Program-made: the position numbers and the translations under genes
Part shown: positions 3,966 to 64,000 of the stretch, in pieces
Layout: each line of letters opens with the position of its first letter
Position numbering within the stretch: position 1 is the stretch's first letter
Assembly (NCBI GenBank): GCA_910589415.1
Contig: OU342637.1
Location: forward strand, 24,217,162-24,281,161
Reading direction: 5' to 3'
DNA length: 64,000 nt
Source of the DNA: Malachius bipustulatus
Taxonomy: Eukaryota > Arthropoda > Insecta > Coleoptera > Melyridae
Notes under the pieces: generated by a model
Seen by the model: only the letters and a program-made list of their open reading frames with translations
The model's database searches: none
What the model was told of the DNA's origin: nothing

Positions 3966-4481
3966 ATAAGAAGTATACACTGCAACGGGTATTTTAATTT
4001 AAATAATTCGTGCGTGGATCAGTCCCCAAGTAACCCCTTACTAAGATATTTAAAAATAATTTTTGTTTACAAATTAACTATATACAATAAACCTCGCAAT
4101 AAACCAAATAATATTATCAAGAGCGATGGCGGTTTTAGGTATTTGGCTCCTCCCACTGGACGGGCAGGCCGCAGTAATCCGAGGTCCCCGTTGGTTTCCG
4201 GAACTGATTGTATATGCAGCGCTTGGTGATAAGGAGCGGGTCGCTACCAGCCGCCGCTGTACCCTCGACACCTCGCTGGAACGCGTCACCCGTTTTACTA
4301 TACCAGAACACGCGATCGATTCGGGCCTCGAATCTCGTCCGCCTGGAGAACAGGAGGTAGTAGGCCCTGTGGGCTCTCAATACAAGCCGCACCGACGAGA
4401 CCTGCTGTTTAATCTAGGTCTTAATAAGACGTGAGCCTGCAGGATGGCAAACTGAAAATAAAGAAAAATTAATTACTAGTT

Positions 4482-4789
4482 CTCCGCTCAGAGCTCATTA
4501 CACTCTGGGCGAGAGTTACGGGACAAGGATAGACCGACTCAATGCTTCGGCCTTTCCCCCTTGGTGCACTCAGTACATGTACTTTGGTTACCTGGTCCTG
4601 TCCTGTGTCCCTGGGGGCTCACTACACCCACCAGAGAAATGATACGCGCGCTAGTCAATACCCAGCTCGCGCCTCGCTGCCTGTTTACCCGGTCGGTGGA
4701 CTCAGTACATCCACCGCGGGGTGCTGGCTCCTGCAGGCTCAGTACACCTGGCAGGAGTTGAATGCTTGATGGTCAGTACTCAAACAAGC
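4482..4789. other. Array of eight hairpins with a conserved 9-nt loop and unrelated stems
   Basis: Plus-strand loops are at 4494-4502 (CTCATTACA), 4538-4546 (CTCAATGCT), 4569-4577 (CTCAGTACA), 4618-4626 (CTCACTACA), 4654-4662 (GTCAATACC), 4701-4709 (CTCAGTACA), 4738-4746 (CTCAGTACA) and 4772-4780 (GTCAGTACT). Every loop is 9 nt and seven of eight contain TCANTAC. Each is flanked by a stem of its own sequence: about 12 bp for the first (CTCCGCTCAGAG), 7 bp perfect for the sixth (CGGTGGA/TCCACCG), and 10 bp with one bulge for the seventh. The second, third, fifth and eighth are weaker, with one or two mismatches or wobbles. Several have a bulge, always in the 3' arm on the plus strand. Loop starts are 31-49 nt apart. 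Conserved loops with covarying stems point to a folded RNA or single-stranded DNA. Function unknown. Confidence 0.85.
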
Positions 4790-4790
4790 A

Positions 4791-4823
4791 CTGTCCGTTC
4801 TTCGGATGTCCTCTCCTTTTATA
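4791..4823 (-). promoter_or_regulatory. Core promoter: TATA box and initiator
   Basis: On the minus strand TATAAAAGG (4823-4815) lies 31 nt before the A of an ACAGTG initiator (A at 4792), the usual arthropod spacing and a good match to the TCAGT-type initiator. A transcript would enter the hairpin array at about +3. The prediction rests on motif and spacing only. Confidence 0.6.
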
Positions 4824-4826
4824 GCC

Positions 4827-4862
4827 GGCGGCGGAGTGATAAGGCTGCTATCGCCGCCGCAA
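4827..4862. other. G+C-rich hairpin upstream of the TATA box
   Basis: GCGGCGG...GTGATA pairs with TATCGCCGCCGC across a 7-nt loop, giving about 12 bp with a 2-nt bulge. It lies just upstream (minus strand) of the TATA box and lacks the TCANTAC loop of the neighbouring array. Confidence 0.65.
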
Positions 4863-5209
4863 AAACCTTCTCTTCCTGTTTCGAACTGATTGAATGAAAT
4901 AAACTGTCTCTAATAAGCAACTAATTGGAATAATAATTATGAACGAAAGCCTCGGATTTCGTTACAACAAGAGCAACAAGAGTTACAATATTAGTATATC
5001 AAAATGAAACGATGCCTTTGATTTGTTAATTTATTAGCAATCAGTTCAAAATTTTCAAGGTGGCATTTAACAAAAGTGATACCTAACAACCTACTATACG
5101 CTTCTGTAGTTACTCGAGTGTTGCCTAGAATGCGTCTTTAGTTACGAGTTCGTAGTTGAAAAACATACGAGGTGAGCAACAGGTAGGATCATTTAATTTT
5201 GGACAACTA

Positions 5210-15257: not shown

Positions 15258-16792
15258 CTAATCATCGGTCTCATAAAATTTTTCAACTTCTTTAATTAAA
15301 GGATATTGCAAATTTGTTAAAGCTGCTATCACTTGTAAAATGACATCCCCATGTTGCATAAATTATTGCAGTAGAAAATTTAAAATTTGTAACATTTTAT
15401 CCTTTGAATCGATCTTTCAACATGTATTCTAGCTCTTGCGATTCTTTTGTTTGATGGACGTGAACAGGAGTAAATTGAGGAGCACTTAAAAACGGAGGAA
15501 TATTAACATGTAGGTACCCCAGGAGGTAAAATATCTTGTGGTAAAAACCCCTTATCGGCTAGAATTAAATCACCTGGTTCTAAAATTTCCAACACTTTGG
15601 AATCTTCGACAATTTTTTTATCCGACGTTGAACCAGGAAAAAAAATCGCTAACGAATGTAATGACACCATTTGGAGCGACACCTATTAAAGCCTTCCAAG
15701 TATTTGTATGCTTATAACTAACTATAGGTCGCTGTTTTGTGTCTTCATGGATGATGATCTACTTGAAACAGTCGACATTTCAGTACAGTCTATCTAAAAG
15801 CATGCGACAGTCCGTAAACGAACTGAAACATGTCGGCAAATAAGTTTTATTTTTATCCCTACTGGGGACGTTCCCTTTCATAATCTGATGTTTATACAGA
15901 GTAGTTTTCAGCTTCCAGTACTGCTGAACTTGACGGTCCTGCTTCTGGATCGTTCTTGCTCGCCTAGAGGGCTTGATTTTCTGCCTCACTAATCGCAGTT
16001 TCTTCGATTTCCATCAATGACTTCGATGGTCCAGGACGAACCTCCTGAGCAGCAGTACTTTCAATGTCGCTACTAATGAAAAATAAATTTACTTCATCGA
16101 TGTTTATATCTACCTATGTGTAGAGTGAAAACCAAATGAGAAGTACTTACATGTACATATCAGGGAAGTGAGGTTTTTGTCATAGACATGCTTGAGATTT
16201 TCCCTTTGATTGGCGGCAATGACCTCACTCCGTAAAAACGTACTTAACTCACTCAAAAGTCTGAAAAATGTTCCTTGTGAATTTTGTGATGAGCAAGAAC
16301 AAGTATTTTACTACTCAATTGTTTTTTTCTCTACATAGAAGCCGCTTTTCCACCTTTGATTATTTGAACTGTCATTTTTTTGCTAAGCAAAGGTGAAAAA
16401 ACCGGCCTCAATTTAATATTCCTACTTACATATCAACAGTCCATCTTGATGGCTTTTCAGCTGAATCTGAACGTCTTCAAACTTTCTTTTCTGGAGTAGT
16501 CCAAGTAAATTTTTTTGTAGCGTGTAAAAATAACTCTGGCCCATCTTCCTTCTTCCCATCTCGAAAGTGGCAGCTGCACACATATGCCCCCGGTCCTGGT
16601 TCATCATCACGCCTAATAGAAAACAGTAATAATTATTAGATTTAATACTTTTTTACCAATTCTAAATAATTTTTAGTACCTGATGAGACTTTTCCATTTC
16701 CTTCTTTCCTGTTCATTCTTCGGAAACCTAAAAAAACTGCATTTTTCTCTCACCTTGTAATCCCGACAATCTGGAGCCCAGCACATTACCAT
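15258..16792 (-). pseudogene. THAP-domain DDE transposase relic (ISL2EU-type)
   Basis: The first exon starts at ATG 16792 and encodes the N half of a THAP zinc finger (MVMCWAPDCRDYKVREKCSF, FRFPKNEQERRKWKSL). An intron (about 16680-16613) follows, and the next exon gives the rest (PGPGAYVCSCHFRDGKKEDG), completing the C2CH ligands. Downstream decayed frames read the DDE_Tnp_4 core: HTNTWKALIGVAPNGVITFV, GDLILADKGFLPQDI, a RIARARIHVERSIQRI-like block and a terminal TNLQYPLIKEVEKFYE-like block. In-frame stops (near 16475, 15975 and in the core) and shifts kill it. Confidence 0.8.
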
Positions 16793-48643: not shown

Positions 48644-51414
48644 TGTCACGCCCCAAAACTGGCCCTACAAACCTAACAATAAGGAACCTGTTCGGGCGCC
48701 AAATGTCACGGTACAAATTCCGGTGACGTATTATTTAGCGATATACAGGGTGTTGTATTACTCGTAATAACCCTCGGACGCCAACTTTATTTTCCCTGTA
48801 TCTACAGGTGACGAGGTCAGTTCCCCGCAGGAGATATCTGCTGGATCTCCATTTATGCTTTTACCCGCAATAACTCAGTGAAGATTTCAATCCAGGAATT
48901 CAATGTGTTTATTAATTCGTAATTTTAGTTGGGAAGTAGGTTTTAATTACTTTCCAACTAATTCTGGAGAAAACGCTTAATTTAAAAGGTGGTAGCAGAA
49001 CTTTATAATTTATTAGGCAACGATAAAACAGTAATCTTAATTAGAAAACAATTTAATTCTCATTCTGAGTAAGTATGTACATTTATAAACGAAACGGGTG
49101 ATTAGTTAAGAAAAATTATACAATCGTGCAACACTGCATGCTACTAAACTACCGCGATGAGAACTGAAATGCAACGGTAGTGAAATGAAAATTATTATTA
49201 TTTACATCCATTCTATTAACTTGGTGCTAAATCTAGCCCCTACAATAATTAACTATGCTCATGCAAGCGAAATGAGTGGTGAGTTAGGTGAAAGGTGATT
49301 ACGATTCCCTGTGCATTCCCCATGCAAACAAAATAGCAATTATAGCAACAATAAACAAACGAGATACCAAACAAGCAAGCTTCATCATTAATTAATATAA
49401 AATTTCCCCCCTTGGGTGCAGCCTGATATTATTCCTAGAGATTTTAAATTAATTCAAAGTAGTTACGGGATACCCTCGTCGGGCTCCCCTCCCACCGACA
49501 CACATCCAGTGTTGTGACCGATCTAGATCTTTCGATCTAGATCACTGATCTAGATCATATATTGAGATCTATGATCTGATCTAGATTCTTTTGACATGAA
49601 AGATCTATGATCTGATCTAGATCAGTTTTTTTTGATCTTGGATCTTTTTTCTAGATCTTTTTATTGAAGACTTTTCAATAAAAATGCAAGTTTAATGAAG
49701 TAAAGCTGGCTAAATATACAAATAATGTGAAGGCCATGTAACAAAATCTTACAATTCTGTGTCTGATGTGTCAACTTCATTTAATCTCACGTAACTGTTT
49801 ACGATCATTGAACTCTAACCTACTGGAAATGACTCGCAATGATTAAATAATGTACCACGCGATATTTTTAGGCAACACGCACTAGTGCAGTATACCCATC
49901 TTTTTCTATCGCATGTTAGCTTTTGGCTAAGAGAGTGAGAGAGAATGACAGAGAATCGCATGAGAGAATAAACACTTGAGAAACGTGACGACCTTGATTG
50001 AGCGTGAAATACAAAAGCCGGACTGCGACGGAAATACTGCAGTATAGTCCCTGCCCCTTACACGTTTTTGGTTAAGGGCATGTGTGTATATGGTGCACAG
50101 TGAACAAAGAAAAAATTCCTAGCCTTATTTTGTAAAAATAACTGATGAAACAAATAAAAGATAAAACCATGATACAACATTACAACTACACAAGGTATTT
50201 CAGCCTGAGACTGAAAAGTGAAAACTCAACCGCGCTGCACATGACGTCACTGTGGAGATAGTAATCCAAGCACTTGAAAATATTTGAATGTGGAAGTCAA
50301 CATTTGTGGGGTATAATGAAAACTTTGAAATTGATGTTGAAAAAAATTGATCTATTTAGTGATCTAAAACTCAGATCTTTTATTTGATGATCTGATCTTT
50401 GATCTAGATCATTTTCAATTTCGAGATCTATGATCTGATCTAGATCTCTAATTTTTAAATGATCTTTGATCTGATCTAGATCTTTTTTGAAATGATCTTT
50501 CCCAACACTGCACACATCCTCCATCTTAGGGAACAACACTCCGCTAAAAGGAACACACGTGACGACAAGAAAGTACCCGAGGAAAGCAGTCGTTCCTACT
50601 ATATTACTTTCCCGCCCAGTTCGAGTCCTTCACTTCCATCTTCCCGAGCACCGATTTCCTCTATTTAGAACGCACTCACCACAAAGGAAACCGACACCCG
50701 ACCTATGGAAGTGTCGGGAAAAGGGCGGCAAGCAAATAACTAAAACATCTCTTTCTGGATCGGACGGTTGGCCAGACCCGCTCTGGAACTTACCTTGCTT
50801 GTATTCAGCTGAGAGCTGTAACCGTAATCATGTAATAATCTCGCTCCATCTACTTATATAGGCGAGACAGAGGGTTGCTGTGGTTACGCACTGCGCTGCC
50901 GCCTTGTCATTGGTGGGGCGTGTCGGTCGGCTATCGCGACTCGGCTCGGTCCGCGTCCGCGGAAGCAGACGAGTCGCATTATAGCGTACTGTATATTTCC
51001 TTCCAAATATTTATTACTTGAAATGTAATTTAACAATAGATCCTAATACTTATTGCTATGCTATTTAGGCTTAATCTTTTCCTTAATTAATAATCTATTT
51101 ACTGATAGTGTTTTTGAGTCCCAATCTCTATTCATAATCTTGATGACGCTCGAAACAACACCGGAAGCATACCTACCTAGGCTGTGTTGTTCTCGTGAAT
51201 CTAATTTTCTATTTACAATTAAAATTATAATTTACATCTGTTAATTATGATGTTTGGTCTCAAAATTATCCTTATTCCATTACCTATCAAATGATATTAC
51301 TTACATTCCCCTATCATTTTCTCTAATCTCTATAACGCTCGAGATATACTAAAATGTCAAGTGAATGGTAATGAACTTTACAATTATTTCTTTATAACGA
51401 GGGACTTCGTTATA
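48644..51414 (-). repeat. 3' LTR, interrupted by a hAT-type element
   Basis: Without the insertion (49507-50510) and its extra octamer it is 1759 bp. Plus-strand ends are TGTCACGCCCC and CTTCGTTATA. TATATAAG (minus) lies at about 50861-50853. Confidence 0.93.
49507..50510. mobile_element. hAT-type element, 1004 bp, inserted in the 3' LTR
   Basis: CAGTGTTG at one end and CAACACTG at the other. The octamer CACACATC is duplicated exactly (49499-49506 and 50511-50518) and occurs once in the other LTR. The outer ~130 bp on each side are crowded with GATCTAGATC and GATCTGATC words. The interior is non-coding. Confidence 0.96.
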
Positions 51415-51432
51415 CTCCCCCCTCACTTCCAA
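51415..51432 (-). other. Polypurine tract of the LTR element
   Basis: The minus strand reads GGAAGTGAGGGGGGAG immediately before the 3' LTR start TATAACG; this primes plus-strand DNA synthesis. Confidence 0.85.
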
Positions 51433-51712
51433 TAAAAAAAAAAGAATCTCAAATTCTTTTTTTTTTCTATCAATCTCACCTAATTTTGCATGAACATATT
51501 TACAATTTATAATACTTAACCTGATCTATTCTAATATTTATCTCTACACTGATTCTACTGCACTGTCAAAGCGTTTTTGAATACAGTCACTTTTACATTT
51601 CAATGTCTTTCACTTAAACTTTAACTTCAACTTCAACTTTTCTTCTATTACTTTGTTATTTTTCTTTCTAAAATGTTCATCTTCGTTTCCTTCATTTTTG
51701 AAAGTTTTCCGA

Positions 51713-52006
51713 TTAAGGAAAATCTGAGGTGTCACTGTTATAAGCCTTAAGATCTTTAATGTGTATTTTCTTCAACTTCGTGCCTGTTTGATCTTCAAGA
51801 TCGTATACAACTGGTGAAATTACTTTAATTACTTTATAAGGCCCCGAAAATTTAGGCGCTAATTTTGCTGCAAATCCCTGAATGGCAGACGATAGTGGAT
51901 GTTCGCGACGCAACACCAAGTCACCTATTTTACATCGCCACTCTCTTCGCCGTAAATTGTAATGAAAACTTTGTTTATTAAAACCTCGTTTTAATTGAAT
52001 TCGCAC
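51713..52006 (-). CDS. Integrase C-terminal part (LTR element)
   Basis: 97 codons including KIGDLVLRREHPL, KFSGPYKVIKV and YDLEDQTGTKLKKIHIKDLK, the SH3-like GPY/F region at the end of gypsy integrases. It is separated from the main pol frame by a shift near 52160, so this frame has no native start. Confidence 0.85.
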   Translation of the reverse strand: MRIQLKRGFNKQSFHYNLRRREWRCKIGDLVLRREHPLSSAIQGFAAKLAPKFSGPYKVIKVISPVVYDLEDQTGTKLKKIHIKDLKAYNSDTSDFP

Positions 52007-52124
52007 TAATTCGAATGTTTCTTTTAATTTACCCAGGATCTCTGTCCTATTACTTATTTCATTATCATTTGGATTGTCTCCATTGTCATCAATATTGTTT
52101 TCCCTATTTCTAGTATAGACTGAT

Positions 52125-54491
52125 TTAGGTACTATTAATTCCCTTCCGAAATTTAAATAAGCTGAAATAAGCTAAAAATCCCGTTGTCTCCTGTTTAGCT
52201 GTGTTCATCGCGAAACCTAATTCTGGTAAATGATCGTCCCAGTTACGTTGGTTATTATCGCAAAATTGAGCAATCATTGTTTTAAAAGTTCTGTTTGCTC
52301 TCTCTACCGCGTTTGCTTGCGGAGTGTAAACAGGTGTAAATTTTTGGCGAATATTCATATCGGCAAGCAGTGTTTTCATTTCTTTGCTGATGAACTGTTT
52401 TCCATTGTCCGATATGATCGTCTTGCAGCAACCAAATTTGCTGATTACCTTCTCAAAAAGTGCATTTGCTACTGCCGGAGCTGTAGCTTTTCTCAGAGGT
52501 TTAAATTCTACCCATTTGGTGAATTTATCTTGTGCCATGAACAGAAAATTATTTCCTTTTTTCGATCTAGGTAAAGGTCCAACAAGATCTATGCAGACTT
52601 TGTCCCAAGGCTCCTTTGCTAATGAAGGTTGCATTTTCCCTGGTGTTTGCTGCTGAGATACCTTATATTTTTGACAACACTCACAACTTCTAACGTATCG
52701 TGCGGTATCACGAAACATTTTTGGCCAATAATAATAATTGGATATTCTTGCAATCGTCTTTGCAATGCCCATATGTCCACCTATGGGTTCATCATGATTT
52801 TCCTTTAAAATATCTTTTCTTATTTCTTTGGGTATGCATAATTTCCATGGATCAACCGTTCCTGGTTCGTTGAAATTATTACTCTCCCAAAAATGTCTGT
52901 AAAGTTTTCCGTTCCTGATTGCGTAGTCAGGAAAAGCATCGGGGTTCGCTTTTATCATTTCCAGTTTTTTATTATACCAACTACATGTAACGTTTGCTTC
53001 GTTGAAATATAATTCTTTAGAACTTTGGCCGTTTTCGACTGGGAGCGGATCCCTTGATAAAGCATCTGCGACCCTGTTTAATGCTTGTTTTCGGTACTTT
53101 ATTTCGAAGTCATATTGCTGCAAGTATATGCTCCATCTAGCTACGCGTCCTGAGGGTGACTTCATGGTTTGAAACCAACTTAGAGACATATGATCTGTTA
53201 GTACTTTAAAGTGGTACCCTTCCAAATATGGACGCATTTTTTCTATCCCCCATACAATTGCTAGACATTCTTTTTCTGTTGCCGTATATTTCTTCTCTGC
53301 GGCTAACAGACTTCTGCTTGCATAAGCAATAACTCTTTCTCCATTTTCTTGATTTTGTGTTAATGCCACACCCAATCCTAGGTCTGATGCATCTGTTTGT
53401 AACACAAACTCTTTCGAAAAATCTGGGCATGCTAAAATTGGGGCGGTGGTCAGCTTTTCTTTTAATTTCTTGAACGCTTCTTCTTGCTGATCCCCCCATG
53501 TCCATTTCTGATTCTTCTTTAACAACTTTGTTAGTGGACTAACAATTTCTGAAAAATGTTCTACGAATCTTCTATACCAAGAACATACTCCTAAGAATCT
53601 TCTTAACTGCTTTAGATTCTTTGGCGTAGACATTGCATTAATGGCTTCTACTTTTCCTGGGTCAGTGTGTATCCCCTCTGACGTAACACTGTGCCCCAAG
53701 TATTTTAACGATGTCCTGCAAAATTGGCACTTATCAGGATTAATTTTTAAATTCGCATTTTTCAACCTCCTGAAAATTTCCTTTAGTATGTCTAAATGTT
53801 CCTCGAATGTATCACCCAAAACAATTAGGTCGTCGAGGTAGGCAAATACTTTAGGTTCCATTTCCGGACCAATTATTGAATCTAATAATCTCTGAAATGT
53901 AGCTGGTGCCGAGTGCAGTCCAAACGCCATTACTTTAAATTGGAAAAGTCCACGACCCGGTACTGTAAACGCTGTAACTGGTTTACTGCTGTTGGTCAGT
54001 GGGACTTGCCAATATCCTTGTCTCAAATCTAGGCTACTGATGTATCGAGCTCTTCTTAATTTGTCCAAAATACTCGAAATGTACGGAAGTGGGTACGCAT
54101 CTTTTGCTGAAACTTCATTGACTTTTCTAAAGTCTATACAGAACCTATAGTTTCCGTCCTTTTTCCTAACTAGAACTACTGGTGAACTCCATGGACTTCT
54201 AGACGGTTCTATTATACCTTCCTCCAGCATTTCATCAACCTGCTCGTCGATGATTTGTTGCATTTTTGGGTTCTGAGGTCGGTATCTTTGCTTGATAGGT
54301 TCTTTCTGTATTAGTTTAATATGATGTTGAACTCGATCCGTTGTACCCTTGATCTTTTCAAATTCTTGAAACTCCTTGTTCAAGAAAGTATTTAATATTC
54401 TCTGCTGAGTATTTGAAAGATCCGGTAAAGGCGATTTGCTGTATGAAGTCATTACTTTACTTCTATCTTCATTACCTTCTTCACTTACCAT
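52125..54491 (-). CDS. Pol: reverse transcriptase, RNase H and integrase core (LTR element)
   Basis: 788 codons. The RT has the FRKVNEVSAKDAYPLP region, LDLRQGYWQVPL, FKVMAFGLHSAPATFQRLLD and the catalytic FAYLDDLIV. RNase H follows with LQTDASDLGLGVAL and ATEKECLAIVW. The integrase has an HHCC finger (H...HMGIAKTI...CECC), the DLVGPLPRSKKGNNF strand and an ISDNGKQF catalytic Asp. The native frame is lost near 52160 by a tandem repeat of a 10-bp AGCTTATTTC unit, adding unrelated residues before a stop. The first codons (MVSEEGNED) are not a genuine start: the frame continues upstream toward the protease. Confidence 0.95.
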   Translation of the reverse strand: MVSEEGNEDRSKVMTSYSKSPLPDLSNTQQRILNTFLNKEFQEFEKIKGTTDRVQHHIKLIQKEPIKQRYRPQNPKMQQIIDEQVDEMLEEGIIEPSRSPWSSPVVLVRKKDGNYRFCIDFRKVNEVSAKDAYPLPYISSILDKLRRARYISSLDLRQGYWQVPLTNSSKPVTAFTVPGRGLFQFKVMAFGLHSAPATFQRLLDSIIGPEMEPKVFAYLDDLIVLGDTFEEHLDILKEIFRRLKNANLKINPDKCQFCRTSLKYLGHSVTSEGIHTDPGKVEAINAMSTPKNLKQLRRFLGVCSWYRRFVEHFSEIVSPLTKLLKKNQKWTWGDQQEEAFKKLKEKLTTAPILACPDFSKEFVLQTDASDLGLGVALTQNQENGERVIAYASRSLLAAEKKYTATEKECLAIVWGIEKMRPYLEGYHFKVLTDHMSLSWFQTMKSPSGRVARWSIYLQQYDFEIKYRKQALNRVADALSRDPLPVENGQSSKELYFNEANVTCSWYNKKLEMIKANPDAFPDYAIRNGKLYRHFWESNNFNEPGTVDPWKLCIPKEIRKDILKENHDEPIGGHMGIAKTIARISNYYYWPKMFRDTARYVRSCECCQKYKVSQQQTPGKMQPSLAKEPWDKVCIDLVGPLPRSKKGNNFLFMAQDKFTKWVEFKPLRKATAPAVANALFEKVISKFGCCKTIISDNGKQFISKEMKTLLADMNIRQKFTPVYTPQANAVERANRTFKTMIAQFCDNNQRNWDDHLPELGFAMNTAKQETTGFLAYFSLFKFRKGINST

Positions 54492-54525
54492 TACATTGTT
54501 TAAGAAGACTCTATTCGTACTAAAA

Positions 54526-54996
54526 TCAATATGAAAATTTGTATCTACTTAGCACATCCATTCCCAATATGATATCAGTAGCTAGTTTCGGTACTATCAG
54601 AAATTTTGCTTCTATTTCTGATTCCTTCAGCTTTATTTTAGCAGATACTAGGCCTGTAATCGGTATTGATGAGCCATCGGCAATTTTCGTTGACACGTCC
54701 CTCAGGATTTGAGCATAAAAACCAATTGTTTCTAACTGACGAATTACTGGTTCGCTTATAAACGACCTATTTGCTCCTGTGTCCAACAAAATTTTGAAGC
54801 TTTTATTGCCTATACTAGTACTTAACGTCGGCCTGTTATCTTTAATTACATTCGGAGCTGTGCACCTAATTGGGCCTTGCTGTTCACTTTCTGAACATTT
54901 TACTAACGATTTATTTACAATTCTATTTACATTGTCTTTCCTGCTATTTACAATATCTTCATTTTCTTCTTCAAATTTCCTATTTTTCTTTTCCAA
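54526..54996 (-). CDS. Aspartic protease (LTR element)
   Basis: The frame contains FKILLDTGANRSFISEPVI, the DTGA active site of retroviral-type proteases, and ATDIILGMDVL, the flap-distal ILG motif. It opens without an ATG (first in-frame codon TTG), as expected for gag-pro frameshifting. A change at a T run near 54535 separates it from RT; in the other frame the sequence continues into RT. Confidence 0.9.
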   Translation of the reverse strand: MEKKNRKFEEENEDIVNSRKDNVNRIVNKSLVKCSESEQQGPIRCTAPNVIKDNRPTLSTSIGNKSFKILLDTGANRSFISEPVIRQLETIGFYAQILRDVSTKIADGSSIPITGLVSAKIKLKESEIEAKFLIVPKLATDIILGMDVLSRYKFSY

Positions 54997-55085
54997 TTTA
55001 CAAATTTTATTTACATTTTCCTTTTCAATTTCCGAAGCAGCGGTCTTCCGGAACTGATCCTGCTTCGGTTCAGTAAAGTTCCTTT

Positions 55086-56084
55086 TTAGTTTCCCTTCTT
55101 TTGGTTATTTTTGCCCTTATTGTCCGGTTGGTGACAAATGTGGCATTTAACCTCAGCTGCATGTGTGCATTCATCAACCTTCTTGCCCGCTTCGTTGAAT
55201 TTCCAGCACGTAATTGTTTCAAGTTTCTGTCCTCTATTTGTGCATGGACAATTCTTTGTTGATACTCCCGGTTTGTTACATCTTTCACAAGCCATTTTTC
55301 TTGGTTGCGTAGCTTGACCTGCGTATCGATCCCTAGATCGTACATTTTGGCTTGAAAATTGTTCTCTTGGCTGCGAATATTGCCTTGAGTATTCCTTAGG
55401 TCGTGCACCTTGGCTTGTATTATGCTCTCTAGGTCGCATACATTGGTTTGCATAATGCCCTTTTTGCTGACAGTTCCAGCAATTGACCTCCGACTGTTCC
55501 CGATTGCTAGGCTCTGTGAAACGAACAGTTCTTCTTTGGAAGTCATTACGTTGATTTTCCTGATATGAAGGTCTGTTTAACCAATTTGGAGGTTGTTTCG
55601 TTGCTTGTACCTCCTTTAACATGGTTTCCACTTCTTTTGCTTTATCAATTAGTGTGGAAATGTTTTCAATTTCACATGTCCAGAGCATCTGTCGGACTTC
55701 TGGTCTTAAGTTACGCATTATTAACATAACCTCCTGGGTTGCGCTAATATTTCCGTGTCGGCGGATCAAAGTTTGCATATCGGTGATATAGGAGCACACT
55801 GGTTCATATTGTCGTTGTAATTTTCGAGTTATTTGCATTTCTAACTCGAATTCGTAATTAACTGGGAAATAATATCGCTTAAAATCGATCACAAAATTTT
55901 CCCAATATGCCCAATTATGACTATTATTTCTATACCACATTAACGCTCCTTTACCCAGGATTTGTGGCAGTGCTACCAGCAGTCTTTCAGGTAATACGTT
56001 GAAGTATTCCTTCACTTCTTCTAGCCTTTCTAGAAATGCTGTGGGATCCGACGTCCCATCAAAATAAATATTCCACCCGGACAT
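55086..56084 (-). CDS. Gag capsid/nucleocapsid (LTR element)
   Basis: 332 codons. It has a gypsy-type capsid (FDGTSDPTAFLERLEEVKEY, RNNSHNWAYWENFVIDFKRY, MQTLIRRHG), then a basic linker and zinc knuckles: CWNCQQKGHYANQC is a perfect C-x2-C-x4-H-x4-C. A second, irregular Cys cluster follows (CERCNKPG..., CHICHQPDNK). Confidence 0.92.
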   Translation of the reverse strand: MSGWNIYFDGTSDPTAFLERLEEVKEYFNVLPERLLVALPQILGKGALMWYRNNSHNWAYWENFVIDFKRYYFPVNYEFELEMQITRKLQRQYEPVCSYITDMQTLIRRHGNISATQEVMLIMRNLRPEVRQMLWTCEIENISTLIDKAKEVETMLKEVQATKQPPNWLNRPSYQENQRNDFQRRTVRFTEPSNREQSEVNCWNCQQKGHYANQCMRPREHNTSQGARPKEYSRQYSQPREQFSSQNVRSRDRYAGQATQPRKMACERCNKPGVSTKNCPCTNRGQKLETITCWKFNEAGKKVDECTHAAEVKCHICHQPDNKGKNNQKKGN

Positions 56085-56086
56085 AT

Positions 56087-56506
56087 TTAGTGCGGTTCCT
56101 GTCTTTGCTGCTGCATATTAATTTGCGGTGCTCTTAGGTTGTGATCATTATTATTTACAAAGTGTGTCGTTATAACTGACTTTGTTTCTTCTTTCTTGCT
56201 TATTCCAGGTCCTGACACAAACGGATCTGTCGGGACTTGTGAGAATGTCGAAGTTTTAGGGGTAGCATTACCGTTACCATTTCTCAGAAACCTTACTAAC
56301 TTTTTCCTTTTTTCATCTACACTTCCTTGTGTGTCTAATCCAAATTTTTCTAATTCTTCGTCTATTTCAGCTTTTCTCAACTTGTATATCCATCCTACTC
56401 TAGGATCTCCTAACTCTTGGTCTCTTTCTGATGAACTCTCATCTTTTAAGCTTTCTTGCGATCCATGTTTACTATTTGATGCTATTTCTTTTTCTCCACC
56501 TCCCAT
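56087..56506 (-). CDS. N-terminal Gag-like ORF (LTR element)
   Basis: 139 codons from an ATG at 56506, rich in E/K/S and with a SAP-like helical stretch (LRKAEIDEELEKFGLDTQGS). It ends 2 bases before the capsid ORF start, in a different frame. This is either a native separate first ORF or the Gag N terminus cut off by an indel; I cannot tell from one copy. Confidence 0.7.
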   Translation of the reverse strand: MGGGEKEIASNSKHGSQESLKDESSSERDQELGDPRVGWIYKLRKAEIDEELEKFGLDTQGSVDEKRKKLVRFLRNGNGNATPKTSTFSQVPTDPFVSGPGISKKEETKSVITTHFVNNNDHNLRAPQINMQQQRQEPH

Positions 56507-57000
56507 TTTGAAAATTATTAATTACTTTTCTTATTATTATTTCCTATAACTGCTTTATCTAATTATCGTTGCCTTCCTAACTTATAAATATAGGATCATA
56601 GCAGCGGTTTCTGCTTATAATCCTAATATTTATCCTATACGAACTAATATGATTAGATTACTTGGTATCCTATAACCCTGTTATATCCTAGGAACCTACT
56701 CTGGTCTCCCTATAACGCTTTAGTTATCTCCTGGATACTCTAGTTGAATAAAATCTGTTCTGGTATCATTTATAACCACTCTGTTATACCTAATGACCCT
56801 AATGCCAGTTTTACTACTAATCTAATCTCCCTGCTCGGTGTAATTAATTGTTCCTAACGAAAATTAGCTCGGGTTTCTGCCCTTTATTTCATTTTCTAAC
56901 GGCCCCGTACCTCTAATTTAATTAATTGGAACAAAACTTACTTACTTGGGCTCCAAACGTATGGTTACCCAACCCGAATACCGAACAATCCGAAATATAA
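56507..57000 (-). other. 5' untranslated leader of the LTR element
   Basis: About 0.5 kb between PBS and gag. Recurrent TATAACC-type words (near 56640-56790), no frame. Confidence 0.6.
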
Positions 57001-57020
57001 CAGAATCTGCTCGGGCGCCA
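57001..57020 (-). other. Primer-binding site, tRNA-Lys type
   Basis: The minus strand reads TGGCGCCCGAGCAGATTCTG, 2 nt after the 5' LTR. It matches the first 10 bases complementary to the 3' end of tRNA-Lys(UUU), then diverges. A better match lies inside the LTR at 57080-57062. Confidence 0.75.
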
Positions 57021-57022
57021 AA

Positions 57023-58787
57023 TGTCACGCCCCAAAACTGGCCCTACAAACCTAACAATAAGGAACCTGTTCGGGCGCCAAATGTCACGGTACAAATTCC
57101 GGTGACGTATTATTTAGCGATATACAGGGTGTTGTATTACTCGTAATAACCCTCGGACGCCAACTTTATTTTCCCTGTATCTACAGGTGACGAGGTCAGT
57201 TCCCCGCAGGAGATATCTGCTGGATCTCCATTTATGCTTTTACCCGCAATAACTCAGTGAAGATTTCAATCCAGGAATTCAATGTGTTTATTAATTCGTA
57301 ATTTTAGTTGGGAAGTAGGTTTTAATTACTTTCCAACTAATTCTGGAGAAAACGCTTAATTTAAAAGGTGGTAGCAGAACTTTATAATTTATTAGGCAAC
57401 GATAAAACAGTAATCTTAATTAGAAAACAATTTAATTCTCATTCTGAGTAAGTATGTACATTTATAAACGAAACGGGTGATTAGTTAAGAAAAATTATAC
57501 AATCGTGCAACACTGCATGCTACTAAACTACCGCGATGAGAACTGAAATGCAACGGTAGTGAAATGAAAATTATTATTATTATTATTTACATCCATTCTA
57601 TTAACTTGGTGCTAAATCTAGCCCCTACAATAATTAACTATGCTCATGCAAGCGAAATGAGTGGTGAGTTAGGTGAAAGGTGATTACGATTCCCTGTGCA
57701 TTCCCCATGCAAACAAAATAGCAATTATAGCAACAATAAACAAACGAGATACCAAACAAGCAAGCTTCATCATTAATTAATATAAAATTTCCCCCCTTGG
57801 GTGCAGCCTGATATTATTCCTAGAGATTTTAAATTAATTCAAAGTAGTTACGGGATACCCTCGTCGGGCTCCCCTCCCACCGACACACATCCTCCATCTT
57901 AGGGAACAACACTCCGCTAAAAGGAACACACGTGACGACAAGAAAGTACCCGAGGAAAGCAGTCGTTCCTACTATATTACTTTCCCGCCCAGTTCGAGTC
58001 CTTCACTTCCATCTTCCCGAGCACCGATTTCCTCTATTTAGAACGCACTCACCACAAAGGAAACCGACACCCGACCTATGGAAGTGTCGGGAAAAGGGCG
58101 GCAAGCAAATAACTAAAACATCTCTTTCTGGATCGGACGGTTGGCCAGACCCGCTCTGGAACTTACCTTGCTTGTATTCAGCTGAGAGCTGTAACCGTAA
58201 TCATGTAATAACCTCGCTCCATCTACTTATATAGGCGAGACAGAGGGTTGCTGTGGTTACGCACTGCGCTGCCGCCTTGTCATTGGTGGGGCGTGTCGGC
58301 CGGCTATCGCGACTCGGCTCGGTCCGCGTCCGCGGAAGCAGACGAGTCGCATTATAGCGTACTGTATATTTCCTTCCAAATATTTATTACTTGAAATGTA
58401 ATTTAAAAATAGATCCTAATACTTATTGCTATGCTATTTAGGCTTAATCTTTTCCTTAATTAATAATCTATTTACTGATAGTGTTTTTGAGTCCCAATCT
58501 CTATTCATAATCTTGATGACGCTCGAAACAACACCGGAAGCATACCTACCTAGGCTGTGTTGTTCTCGTGAATCTAATTTTCTATTTACAATTAAAATTA
58601 TAATTTACATCTGTTAATTATGATGTTTGGTCTCAAAATTATCCTTATTCCATTACCTATCAAATGATATTACTTACATTCCCCTATCATTTTCTCTAAT
58701 CTCTATAACGCTCGAGATATACTAAAATGTCAAGTGAATGGTAATGAACTTTACAATTATTTCTTTATAACGAGGGACTTCGTTATA
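57023..58787 (-). repeat. 5' LTR, 1765 bp
   Basis: The minus strand starts TATAACGAAGTCCCTCG and ends GGGGCGTGACA. TATATAAG at 58233-58226 is a likely promoter. A 100-codon antisense frame (57932-58234) is present in both LTRs with a single residue change. Confidence 0.95.
58226..58234 (-). promoter_or_regulatory. LTR TATA box
   Basis: CTATATAAG on the minus strand within a G+C-richer stretch. The same site is in the other LTR at 50861-50853. Confidence 0.6.
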
Positions 58788-62094: not shown

Positions 62095-63837
62095 TCACTT
62101 TGGTTTCACTTCAGTATCTTTTCGGTGATTGCGTTTGAAGTGTCTATTTAGATACGCTTTCACTTTAGTTTCATAAGGACAGATGTCACACTTGAGCAAT
62201 TTAGCATTTTGTCTGTGTTTAAGATTGAAATGTATAATGATGTATCTTTTGATTTTAGTTTCAAATGGACAAATGTCACATTTGAACAATAATTCAGTAT
62301 GTTCTTTGTGATTATAATTAAAATGTTTGGTTAGATAAAATTTCACTTCAGTTTTATAAGGACAGATGTCACATTTGTACAATTTATTACGTTCTTCGTG
62401 TTTACAAATAATATGCTTCTTCAAGTTGAGTCTTTTTTTAGTTTCAAATGCACAACTGGCACATTTGAACCATTTAGTTTCAGTACGCTCTCTGTGATTA
62501 TAATTAAAATGTTTGATTAGATTTCTTCTCACTCTAGTTTCATAAGGACAGATGACACACTTGAGCAACTCCGTATCTTGTTTGTGTTTACAATTGAAAT
62601 GCTCAATGATGTCTCTTTTGATTTTAGTTTCAAATGGACAAATGTCACATTTGAACAATAATTCAGTATGTTCTTTGTGATTATAATTAAAATGTTTAGC
62701 TAGATAACATTTCACTTTAGTTTTATAAGAACAGATGTCACACTTGTACAACTCAGTATCTTGTCTGTGCTTACAAATAATATGTTTCTTCAAATCGCTT
62801 CTTCTTTTAGTTTCATATGAACAACTGGCACATTTGAACAATTTAGTTTCAGTATGTTCTCTGTGATTATAATTAAAATGTTTAGCTAGATAAAATTTCA
62901 CTTCAGTTTTATAAGGACAGATGTCACATTTGTACAATTCATTACGTTCTTTGTGTTTACCAATGATATGCCTCTTCAAATTGTTTCTTGTTATAGTTTC
63001 ATATGAACAACTGGCACATTTGAACCATACACTATGTTCTCTGTGCTTATAATTAAAATGTTTAATTAGATATCCTCTCACTTTAGTTTCATAAGGACAG
63101 ATGTCACACTTGTACAGCTCAGTATCTTGTGTGTGTGTACGATTGAAATGCTGAGTGATGTATCTTTTGATCTTAGTTTGATATGAACAACGGTCACATT
63201 TGAACACTTCAGCAGTATGTTCTCTGTGTTTGCTATAAAAGTGATTATAAATATATTCTTTCACTTTAGTTTCATAAGGACACAAGTCACACTTGAACAA
63301 TTCAGAATTTTGTCTGTGTTTCAAAATCATATGCCTTTTCAAATTGATTTTTCTCGTAGTTTCATATGTACAACTATCACATTTAAATAATTCAATCGTA
63401 GCACCCTCAGAACATCTCTTCAATGGTGTAAGTGTGAAGTATTTATGGACAATATTGCTTCTTTCTTTAGAATTTGGCTCATGTTCCTCTTCTTCAGTAC
63501 ATATCTCTTCTTTCAATCCTACAATTTGATTCTCATTGTCAAGAATTCCAAACTTACATTCGGCTTTCACTGCCACAAGTTTCCTATCAATCTGACCACT
63601 TTCCTGATAAAAATTCTCATTTTTACAAGGATAATTCTGGTAGTTGAAACAGGAATCGAAAGTCGGGAATTGTTCTTTCTTTTCTTCGTTTATGGGAGTG
63701 GTGAAAGTTGCTTCCTCTTCCAAAGGGGCACTATCAATAATTACATCTTGCTCTTTGATCAGGTCGTAGTCGTTGAACTCATTCAGTGAGTCTATTGGCT
63801 CAACTTTCACAAGACATGAAGAACTGACATCACTCAT
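62095..63837 (-). CDS. Intronless 14-finger C2H2 zinc-finger protein, 580 aa
   Basis: A single coding exon from ATG 63837 to stop 62095. Residues 1-150 are acidic and contain three psi-K-x-E sites (VKVEP, VKAEC, LKEEI), possible SUMO sites. Residues ~151-575 are 14 uninterrupted fingers of the form (F/Y)KC(D/A)xC-(P/S)YETK...(H)-x4-H with linkers like KHREHTEL rather than the common TGEKP. Two finger types recur: CDICPYETK...HFNYKH and CASCSYETK...LKKHIICKH. Runs of similar fingers indicate internal duplication. The short TGEKP-less linkers and extra aromatic make DNA binding by all fingers uncertain. An acceptor-like TTTCAG at about 63935 implies a non-coding upstream exon. A related two-finger piece is at 19270-19635. 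Confidence 0.9.
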   Translation of the reverse strand: MSDVSSSCLVKVEPIDSLNEFNDYDLIKEQDVIIDSAPLEEEATFTTPINEEKKEQFPTFDSCFNYQNYPCKNENFYQESGQIDRKLVAVKAECKFGILDNENQIVGLKEEICTEEEEHEPNSKERSNIVHKYFTLTPLKRCSEGATIELFKCDSCTYETTRKINLKRHMILKHRQNSELFKCDLCPYETKVKEYIYNHFYSKHREHTAEVFKCDRCSYQTKIKRYITQHFNRTHTQDTELYKCDICPYETKVRGYLIKHFNYKHREHSVWFKCASCSYETITRNNLKRHIIGKHKERNELYKCDICPYKTEVKFYLAKHFNYNHREHTETKLFKCASCSYETKRRSDLKKHIICKHRQDTELYKCDICSYKTKVKCYLAKHFNYNHKEHTELLFKCDICPFETKIKRDIIEHFNCKHKQDTELLKCVICPYETRVRRNLIKHFNYNHRERTETKWFKCASCAFETKKRLNLKKHIICKHEERNKLYKCDICPYKTEVKFYLTKHFNYNHKEHTELLFKCDICPFETKIKRYIIIHFNLKHRQNAKLLKCDICPYETKVKAYLNRHFKRNHRKDTEVKPK

Positions 63838-64000
63838 GATGATATCTACTGTGACAGGTTTTTGATGGCCAAAACCTATCTTTTTTTGGTATTGTTACCA
63901 ATAACTAGCCTCATAAGTCATTAGGTATGGATACCTGAAATGTAATTAAATACATTAATAATAGTGGAAGGTAGAATATCTAGAAGTTCAGTGGGAAAGA
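63838..64000 (-). other. 5' UTR and upstream of the 14-finger gene
   Basis: The minus-strand CATTTCAG acceptor near 63935 is followed by about 97 nt of leader to the ATG; the first exon lies beyond the window. Confidence 0.5.

Follow-up and report, generated by a model that had tools for sequence, protein, structure and literature searches.

Tandem hairpins with a common GHANUGA heptaloop and differing stems in long terminal repeats of Malachius bipustulatus

At the 5' end of R, after the start site, the transcripts of HIV-1 and HIV-2 carry the TAR hairpin, a place that they would share with the hairpins described here. The TAR of HIV-2 has more than one hairpin, and TAR needs Tat. The array that concerns us has another loop and far more hairpins than these Tat-dependent elements. 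The iron-responsive element is recognised by a CAGUGN hexaloop and a C bulge; we rejected it for the present array, whose loops are GHANUGA heptaloops and whose bulge side varies. Pumilio sites, a tRNA anticodon mimic, roX and miRNA were rejected together with it (in the loop taken as 9 nt, position 1 is paired and positions 3 and 5 vary). The structure of Ty3 RNA was reportedly the subject of a study in 2024.

Successive stem-loops that repeat one short motif are found in the packaging signal of alphaviruses, where four to six stem-loops with GGG select the genomic RNA (PMC8233893); that signal, however, has GGG as its motif and lies in the coding region of a positive-strand virus, whereas here eight or nine GHANUGA heptaloops lie in a long terminal repeat (LTR). 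Ty3 is of the same superfamily as the element to be described, but the relevant passages of the source, on the genomic RNA signals of Ty1 and Ty3, mention no loop repeated in tandem hairpins, and they present the packaging sequences of yeast Ty elements as not precisely defined (PMC4974528). In vertebrate retroviruses, the residual conservation of long R regions has been linked to stem-loops, a point of likeness, but no repeated identical loop is described in the portion of the source drawn on (PMC3601003).

A search of the open-access literature found no description of such a hairpin array; retroelement RNAs are known to have cis-acting regions, the kind to which it would belong, but its architecture was not found described there. 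A preliminary description of the locus knew of no family with this design. Run against the whole window (by which we mean the entire 64,000-nucleotide stretch analysed), Rfam 15 yielded nothing at gathering scores; at E up to 5, two weak matches were obtained between 3500 and 6000, both outside the LTR. In viral contigs, a loose pattern found at least 120 stretches and a strict three-loop pattern 11, none of these 11 being recognised by the hairpin model when E values up to 2 were allowed. Run against 99 and 33 viral loci, the model picked out one hairpin-like match, L072 (E 0.14, 0.046) and, more weakly, L109 (E 0.44), each standing alone. A search of phage DNA gave no match.

Nine hairpins and their strand

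The preliminary description had reported eight hairpins with a constant 9-nt loop. All eight were found where it placed them, but it had overlooked a ninth at 4369-4392, beyond the coordinates that it gave, in which TGTATTGAG (4384-4376) is carried on a stem GGCT/AGCC. The plus-strand loops [CG]TCANTAC[ACT] become NGTANTGAN when read on the minus strand. As bases 1 and 9 of this unit pair (U/G in six of the nine hairpins, G/C in one), the loop of the window array is better read as a heptaloop, GUANUGA, above a closing pair, so that the positions given for the loops stand and their length does not.

4485-4790 and 4369-4392, minus strand: nine-hairpin array (hairpins 1-8 and hairpin 9, respectively)
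4763..4790, minus strand: hairpin 1, loop GTACTGA at 4779-4773, with a G-C closing pair in most copies and A·C in that of the window
4728..4757, minus strand: hairpin 2, loop GTACTGA at 4745-4739
4694..4716, minus strand: hairpin 3, loop GTACTGA at 4708-4702
4644..4672, minus strand: hairpin 4, loop GTATTGA at 4661-4655, G-C closed
4608..4637, minus strand: hairpin 5, loop GTAGTGA at 4625-4619
4564..4582, minus strand: hairpin 6, loop GTACTGA at 4576-4570; stem damaged in the window copy
4531..4553, minus strand: hairpin 7, loop GCATTGA at 4545-4539
4485..4511, minus strand: hairpin 8, loop GTAATGA at 4501-4495
4369..4392, minus strand: hairpin 9, loop GTATTGA at 4383-4377; present in other copies too

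The structure belongs to the minus strand, as both folding and the U·G pairs indicate. Folded over 314 nt, the minus strand reaches -127.6 kcal/mol (z -3.78, with 1 of 100 shuffles as good) and the plus strand is unexceptional (z -0.82, 20 of 100); moreover, the six U·G closing pairs would be C·A mismatches on the plus strand. The earlier opinion that mismatches favour neither strand is therefore not upheld. Nor is the remark that bulges fall in the 3' arm (plus-strand view) a rule of the family, since several bulges of related arrays lie in the opposite arm.

How far does the pairing exceed what such loops would meet by chance? As a control, arm pairing was scored at every GTANTGA/GCATTGA site in the window, 56 in all with both strands counted. 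Array members take the first seven places (-12.8 to -19.7 kcal/mol), the best site outside the array having -8.9 kcal/mol (25973, plus strand) and the two remaining members -7.7 (4780) and -2.4 kcal/mol (4577). Arm shuffles equalled the observed energy at most 4 times in 300 for seven members, 32 times for 4384 and 65 times for 4577; two sites outside the array were seldom equalled by their shuffles either (25973, 0/300; 15657, 2/300), at weak energies. When the motif is widened to GHANUGA, strong arms (-9 kcal/mol or better) accompany 7 of 67 minus-strand sites in the window, all seven in the array, and 1 of 69 on the plus strand.

Across the nine window hairpins, 86.7% of upper-stem cells are paired, against 49.3% after shuffling, a level reached by none of 500 shuffles. 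Two-sided changes occupy 18 cells (5.8 in shuffled sets, 0/500 reaching 18). Cruder measures are less striking: two-sided changes occur in all five upper pairs, which 48/500 shuffles match, and the count of further pair types is reached by 12/500. Sliding the partners abolishes the signal. Tandem Repeats Finder reports no repeat at 4482-4789, where two of the units, at 4553 and 4685, resemble each other in part (81% over 26 nt). With this blank result and differing stems, a simple tandem repeat was rejected; the original argument that stems which differ and yet pair are not the product of plain tandem duplication is borne out by covariation in excess of shuffles.

Not every member is sound in the window copy. 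The stretches of hairpins 1 (4780) and 6 (4577) by themselves prefer other folds, which we attribute to decay, since other genomic copies have better stems; most relatives likewise improve on the damaged stems at 4577, 4780 and 4546. Hairpin 9 alone is modest (z -1.36, 21 of 200 shuffles as good), and a 330-nt stretch including it, downstream of hairpin 8, folds no better than shuffles (z +1.04).

The LTR around the array and its copies

The array lies in a dispersed repeat with sharp LTR-type ends (TG...CA) common to its copies, and that the surrounding anatomy is that of an LTR we regard as nearly certain.

3981..4966 (986 bp), minus strand: solo LTR of a probable Ty3/gypsy-type retrotransposon, with ends TGTAACG...CGTTGCA and borders shared among copies
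3977..3980, strand not assigned: possible target-site duplication ACAC, its partner ACAA (4967-4970) inexact; suggested by the 4-bp duplications of other copies
4815..4823, minus strand: TATA box TATAAAAGG, from sequence; TATAAA in 20 of 21 aligned sequences, L144 being the exception
4790..4794, minus strand: initiator-like ACAGT, with a putative start at A4792, 31 nt past the first T of the TATA box
4062..4067, minus strand: degenerate polyadenylation signal AACAAA (AATAAA in relatives), a probable guide to the R/U5 boundary

Searching the source genome (544 Mb, 52 contigs) gave at least 40 dispersed copies of the LTR, including that in the window, at 83-100% identity (40 scored of 231 candidates). 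At 20 other loci that were fetched, similarity begins at 4962-4970 in 15 and stops at 3973-3985 in 15, and exact 4-bp target duplications border 6 of the 11 copies having both ends. The flanks of these 20 contain no common internal region, so that most look like solo LTRs; the primer site TGGCGCCCAACGTGGGG directly follows the LTR in one of them (L139). At the single place examined beside a primer site of a window-type LTR (L182, 1 kb), no reverse transcriptase (RT) was seen by eye. In the 20 fetched loci, 140 of 170 sense-strand motif sites within the LTR zone have strong hairpins, against 2 of 167 outside it.

The TATA box and the initiator-like sequence would both agree with a transcript starting near 4792 on the minus strand, as had been suggested. 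Of the 15 copies with an intact LTR end downstream, 11 have AATAAA 86-88 nt upstream of it (present in L138-L141, L143, L144, L147, L150 and L153-L155; absent from L146, L148, L149 and L151). From its position we infer that the array lies in R, and would consequently occur at both ends of the genomic RNA; it would fill about the first half of R, just downstream of the TATA box. Of the earlier idea of a multivalent leader, the repeated loops on folded RNA survive, but the leader is not that of a host transcript: the array belongs to a multicopy LTR, and both a host noncoding RNA and a host mRNA leader were rejected for that reason.

Two further observations concern this LTR. At 4452-4470 (minus strand), directly after hairpin 8, TTTTTCTTTATTTTCAG resembles a 3' splice site, and something similar is found in most of the 21 aligned sequences. 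The 92-aa minus-strand and 102-aa plus-strand frames within 4078-4434 were rejected as genes, being inside the LTR and without a homologue in a search whose control, a PTCD3-homologue exon, gave 143 hits. That exon, which lies in the window, resembles arthropod proteins, the best of the named ones being from a beetle (65%).

Variation among copies was followed in an alignment of 20 sequences, including the window (L156 was left out as a near-duplicate of L157). Deviation from the commonest letter amounts to 30 of 1074 cells (2.8%) at the six fixed loop positions, 153 of 3104 (4.9%) in the stems, 210 of 3896 (5.4%) in other columns of the array and 23 of 179 (12.8%) at the free loop position (Fisher p 0.0004 when fixed positions are compared with all others, 0.0001 for the free position, from cells that are not independent). 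Free decay of stems beneath persisting loops had been proposed in advance as grounds for abandoning the structural claim, and between copies the stems do decay like their surroundings and the fixed loops less. Such decay is, however, what is expected of dead copies, and the constraint is seen between lineages (see below) and in two covarying pairs. One pair of hairpin 6 is A-U in eight copies, G-C in eight, G-U in two and broken in two (Fisher p 0.005), and one pair of hairpin 4 is U-A in 14, C-G in 2, U-G in three and broken in one; the compensatory changes that the preliminary description advised looking for thus exist at two pairs, changed on both sides, the other variable pairs being broken or changed on one side.

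Other array lineages and a gag-pol element

A pattern consisting of the LTR end and the primer site, with up to three mismatches, matched 202 places in the genome, belonging to several LTR families (reversed control, 0). Three further LTR lineages have arrays of their own. One of the places matched, L178, holds an 836-bp LTR whose alignment to that of the window is mainly confined to the first 270 bases (62%). Behind its TATA box stand eight hairpins, none of them matched by more than 9 of 300 arm shuffles; five more motif-like sites, reached by 51-217 of 300 shuffles, were left uncounted. The third LTR (in L145) is 69% identical to L178, and 66% to the window LTR over the first 272 bases, and the fourth (L181), in which all eight hairpins are present, is 66% identical to L178 and 64% to the third. 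These three, being 64-69% identical to each other, are not fully independent. Their loop consensus is G-H-A-N-U-G-A. Their stems are mostly unlike those of the window, although the three share some with each other, and a short local match (33 bases, 79%, E 0.001) connects window hairpin 8 with hairpin 5 of the third LTR.

The 24 hairpins of the three lineages were chosen by loop motif and by eye (hairpins 5 and 8 of the third LTR having looser loops), and the five upper pairs were taken over from the window hairpins. In these pairs, 105 of 120 cells are paired (shuffled mean 61.0, sd 4.3; 0/2000), falling to 27-57 when partners are slid by one to three places. The closing pairs are all standard (UG 17, GC 3, UA 2, CG 2), and the fixed loop letters are kept in 23 (G), 23 (A), 23 (U), 24 (G) and 24 (A) of the 24. 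In a separate covariation count, 87.5% were paired against 50.4% in shuffles (0/500), and two of the five measures were unremarkable (pairs with two-sided change, 147/500 shuffles; pair types, 77/500); as the three lineages share stems, these counts do not come from independent rows. The fold of the L178 array again favours the sense strand (z -2.69, 1/100; antisense -0.73, 21/100).

When a covariance model built from these 24 hairpins was run on the 64 kb of the window, its top seven matches were all array members (E 0.0003-0.8), those at 4546 and 4780 being missed. Of the further lineages the reverse test covered L178 and the third LTR and was weaker: a model built from the window found three of the eight L178 hairpins (E 0.34-1.4) and two of the eight in the third LTR (E 0.02, 0.07). 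In all four lineages the distance from the beginning of the TATA box (TATA[AT]AA occurs in the other three as well) to the first loop is 42-44 nt, which places that loop some 12-14 nt after the putative transcription start, and loops are spaced by 29-52 nt, apart from 118 nt before the ninth of the window. The array is thus a property of at least four LTR lineages, with eight or nine GHANUGA-heptaloop hairpins whose stems differ and remain paired. That selection has acted on a folded RNA with repeated loops on display, as first put forward from the window, is well supported, also by the three further lineages.

Arrays were absent from the L179 LTR, which has the same type of primer site, and from a gypsy element in the window itself (about 48.6-58.8 kb; 58% RT identity). 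The latter, at 48644-58787 on the minus strand, is a second Ty3/gypsy element with gag and pol frames, whose LTR-like direct repeats (48644-49507/57023-57892 and 50511-51414/57884-58787) are 99.3-99.7% identical, one repeat copy having about 1 kb extra between its parts; short palindromic tandem repeats of CTGATCTAGATC-like units occupy 49519-49624 and 50400-50500 in its LTR region. Elsewhere in the window, a 599-aa frame (62095-63894, minus strand) has many C2H2-like zinc fingers and an internal period of 369 bases.

What kind of element carries the array? One array lineage flanks the gag and pol of a Ty3/gypsy element: on contig C31, the order is LTR (L183, with hairpins 5-8 in the piece read), primer site, gag frame, RT and RNase H, and a second LTR (L184), in which the scan gives hairpins 2-8, and L181 is the LTR neighbouring this element. 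Ty3 is nearest to the C31 RT among solved structures, and it is for this lineage that RT and RNase H of Ty3 type were seen between LTRs. No match to Peptidase_A17 of BEL/Pao elements (150 of 1407 candidates scored) lay within 18 kb of the 100 primer sites listed out of 202; BEL/Pao is unsupported, and the Ty3-type RT of a related lineage speaks against it. The L181 array recurs at 100% identity over 371 bases at all 40 places scored (of 736 candidates), 36 of which can be grouped into 18 pairs on the same strand, with spacings of 5.1-5.9 kb in 17 and 8.7 kb in one; paired identical arrays are the pattern that very recent LTR-gag-pol-LTR insertions would give. The interval of about 4.9 kb between LTRs, which has been partly read, seems to leave little room for env or an accessory gene.

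The primer is tRNA-Lys, ARAGORN finding a whole reverse-complement tRNA-Lys(CTT) after the L181 LTR. This complete copy (L181 903-978; C31 about 15,502-15,577) lies between two LTRs and runs on from the primer site without a break; it looks as though the primer tRNA had been reverse-transcribed in full and the product then joined to another LTR. In the reverse complement of L178 (about 1241-1264), a stretch that matches the LTR end recurs inverted just after the primer site.

What the array may do

We propose, with a probability of about 0.42 for the explanation as a whole, that the array in R of the genomic RNA is a multivalent cis-acting docking array for Gag or nucleocapsid. Conservation of the loop and of pairing, with stem sequence and bulge side left free, points to a reader that recognises the loop; the repeated loop would be what is recognised, and the stems would merely support it. 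Eight or nine copies point to avidity, and the hairpins may act jointly to gather many molecules of one RNA-binding protein. In the absence of any sign of an accessory protein, that reader would be Gag/nucleocapsid or a host protein. Gag is the likeliest partner if, as it seems, the 4.9 kb are too small for another protein, and the element's own Gag or nucleocapsid could thereby select and pack the genomic RNA, for which the alphavirus packaging signal, with its motif repeated over several stem-loops, offers a parallel (PMC8233893). This step to Gag and packaging is a tentative one, at somewhat less than even odds. With R at both ends of the RNA, each transcript would carry the array twice, and solo LTRs like that of the window would retain only a decaying array. 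Certain observations count against the proposal: the fetched C31 Gag piece stops before any zinc knuckle, and related gypsy LTRs (L179 and those of the window element) are without the array. Further, as R is in every transcript from such an LTR, the array alone cannot separate full-length from other LTR-started RNAs.

We rank Gag packaging first and, second, a role in export or localisation. In the latter a host RNA-binding protein would dock on the array, which would act like a constitutive transport element, and would provide for export, localisation or stability of the retrotransposon's unspliced RNA; we consider this unlikely. The uniform loops would suit a single protein, the array would stand at the extreme 5' end of the RNA and again in the 3' R, and an export factor of the element's own is improbable, since the C31 element seems to have gag and pol only and LTRs recur about 5.9 kb apart. 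The same genome, however, contains gypsy LTRs that have no array, and we know of no host binding partner for GHANUGA.

Behind these come two explanations that we think improbable. In the first, the nascent array would recruit an elongation-boosting factor to LTR transcription, as would fit the constant place of the first loop, 12-14 nt past the putative start in all four lineages; HIV TAR has the same place relative to the start, but its loops are unlike those of the array, a Tat-like frame is unlikely in the partly read 4.9 kb of internal sequence, and eight or nine hairpins over 420 nt downstream far exceed what would be needed. The second, which we hold at least as improbable, is translational: a structured leader, predicted to be about 0.9 kb long, might block scanning and favour internal entry or shunting to gag. 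The stability of the fold (-127.6 kcal/mol over 314 nt) and the position of the first ATG of the gag frame, about 100 nt past the primer site in the C31 element, accord with this, but a block to scanning needs no uniform loops, and the stretch beyond hairpin 8 is unremarkable (z +1.04). Chance, or a mutational by-product of GC-rich tandem duplication, has next to no probability: the units did probably arise by duplication and their loops are fairly evenly spaced, but the explanation is contradicted by pairing that is kept while stems differ, and each of the 11 viral-contig stretches that the strict three-loop pattern found is a plain repeat or a chance occurrence.

As a caution for annotation, tandem structured RNA in intergenic DNA can derive from solo LTRs. 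Returning to packaging by Gag, how LTR-retrotransposons choose their own RNA is poorly defined, yeast Ty being an example (PMC4974528), and an array that is compact and constrained, in a family with identical recent copies, makes loop and stem separately testable. It is conceivable, although we put it below an even chance, that eight or nine U·G-closed GHANUGA hairpins at both ends of the RNA represent a new class of retroelement signal, a scaffold for Gag assembly; such an array might coevolve with Gag while its stems drift, and would be a retroelement counterpart to the repeated-loop packaging signals of RNA viruses.
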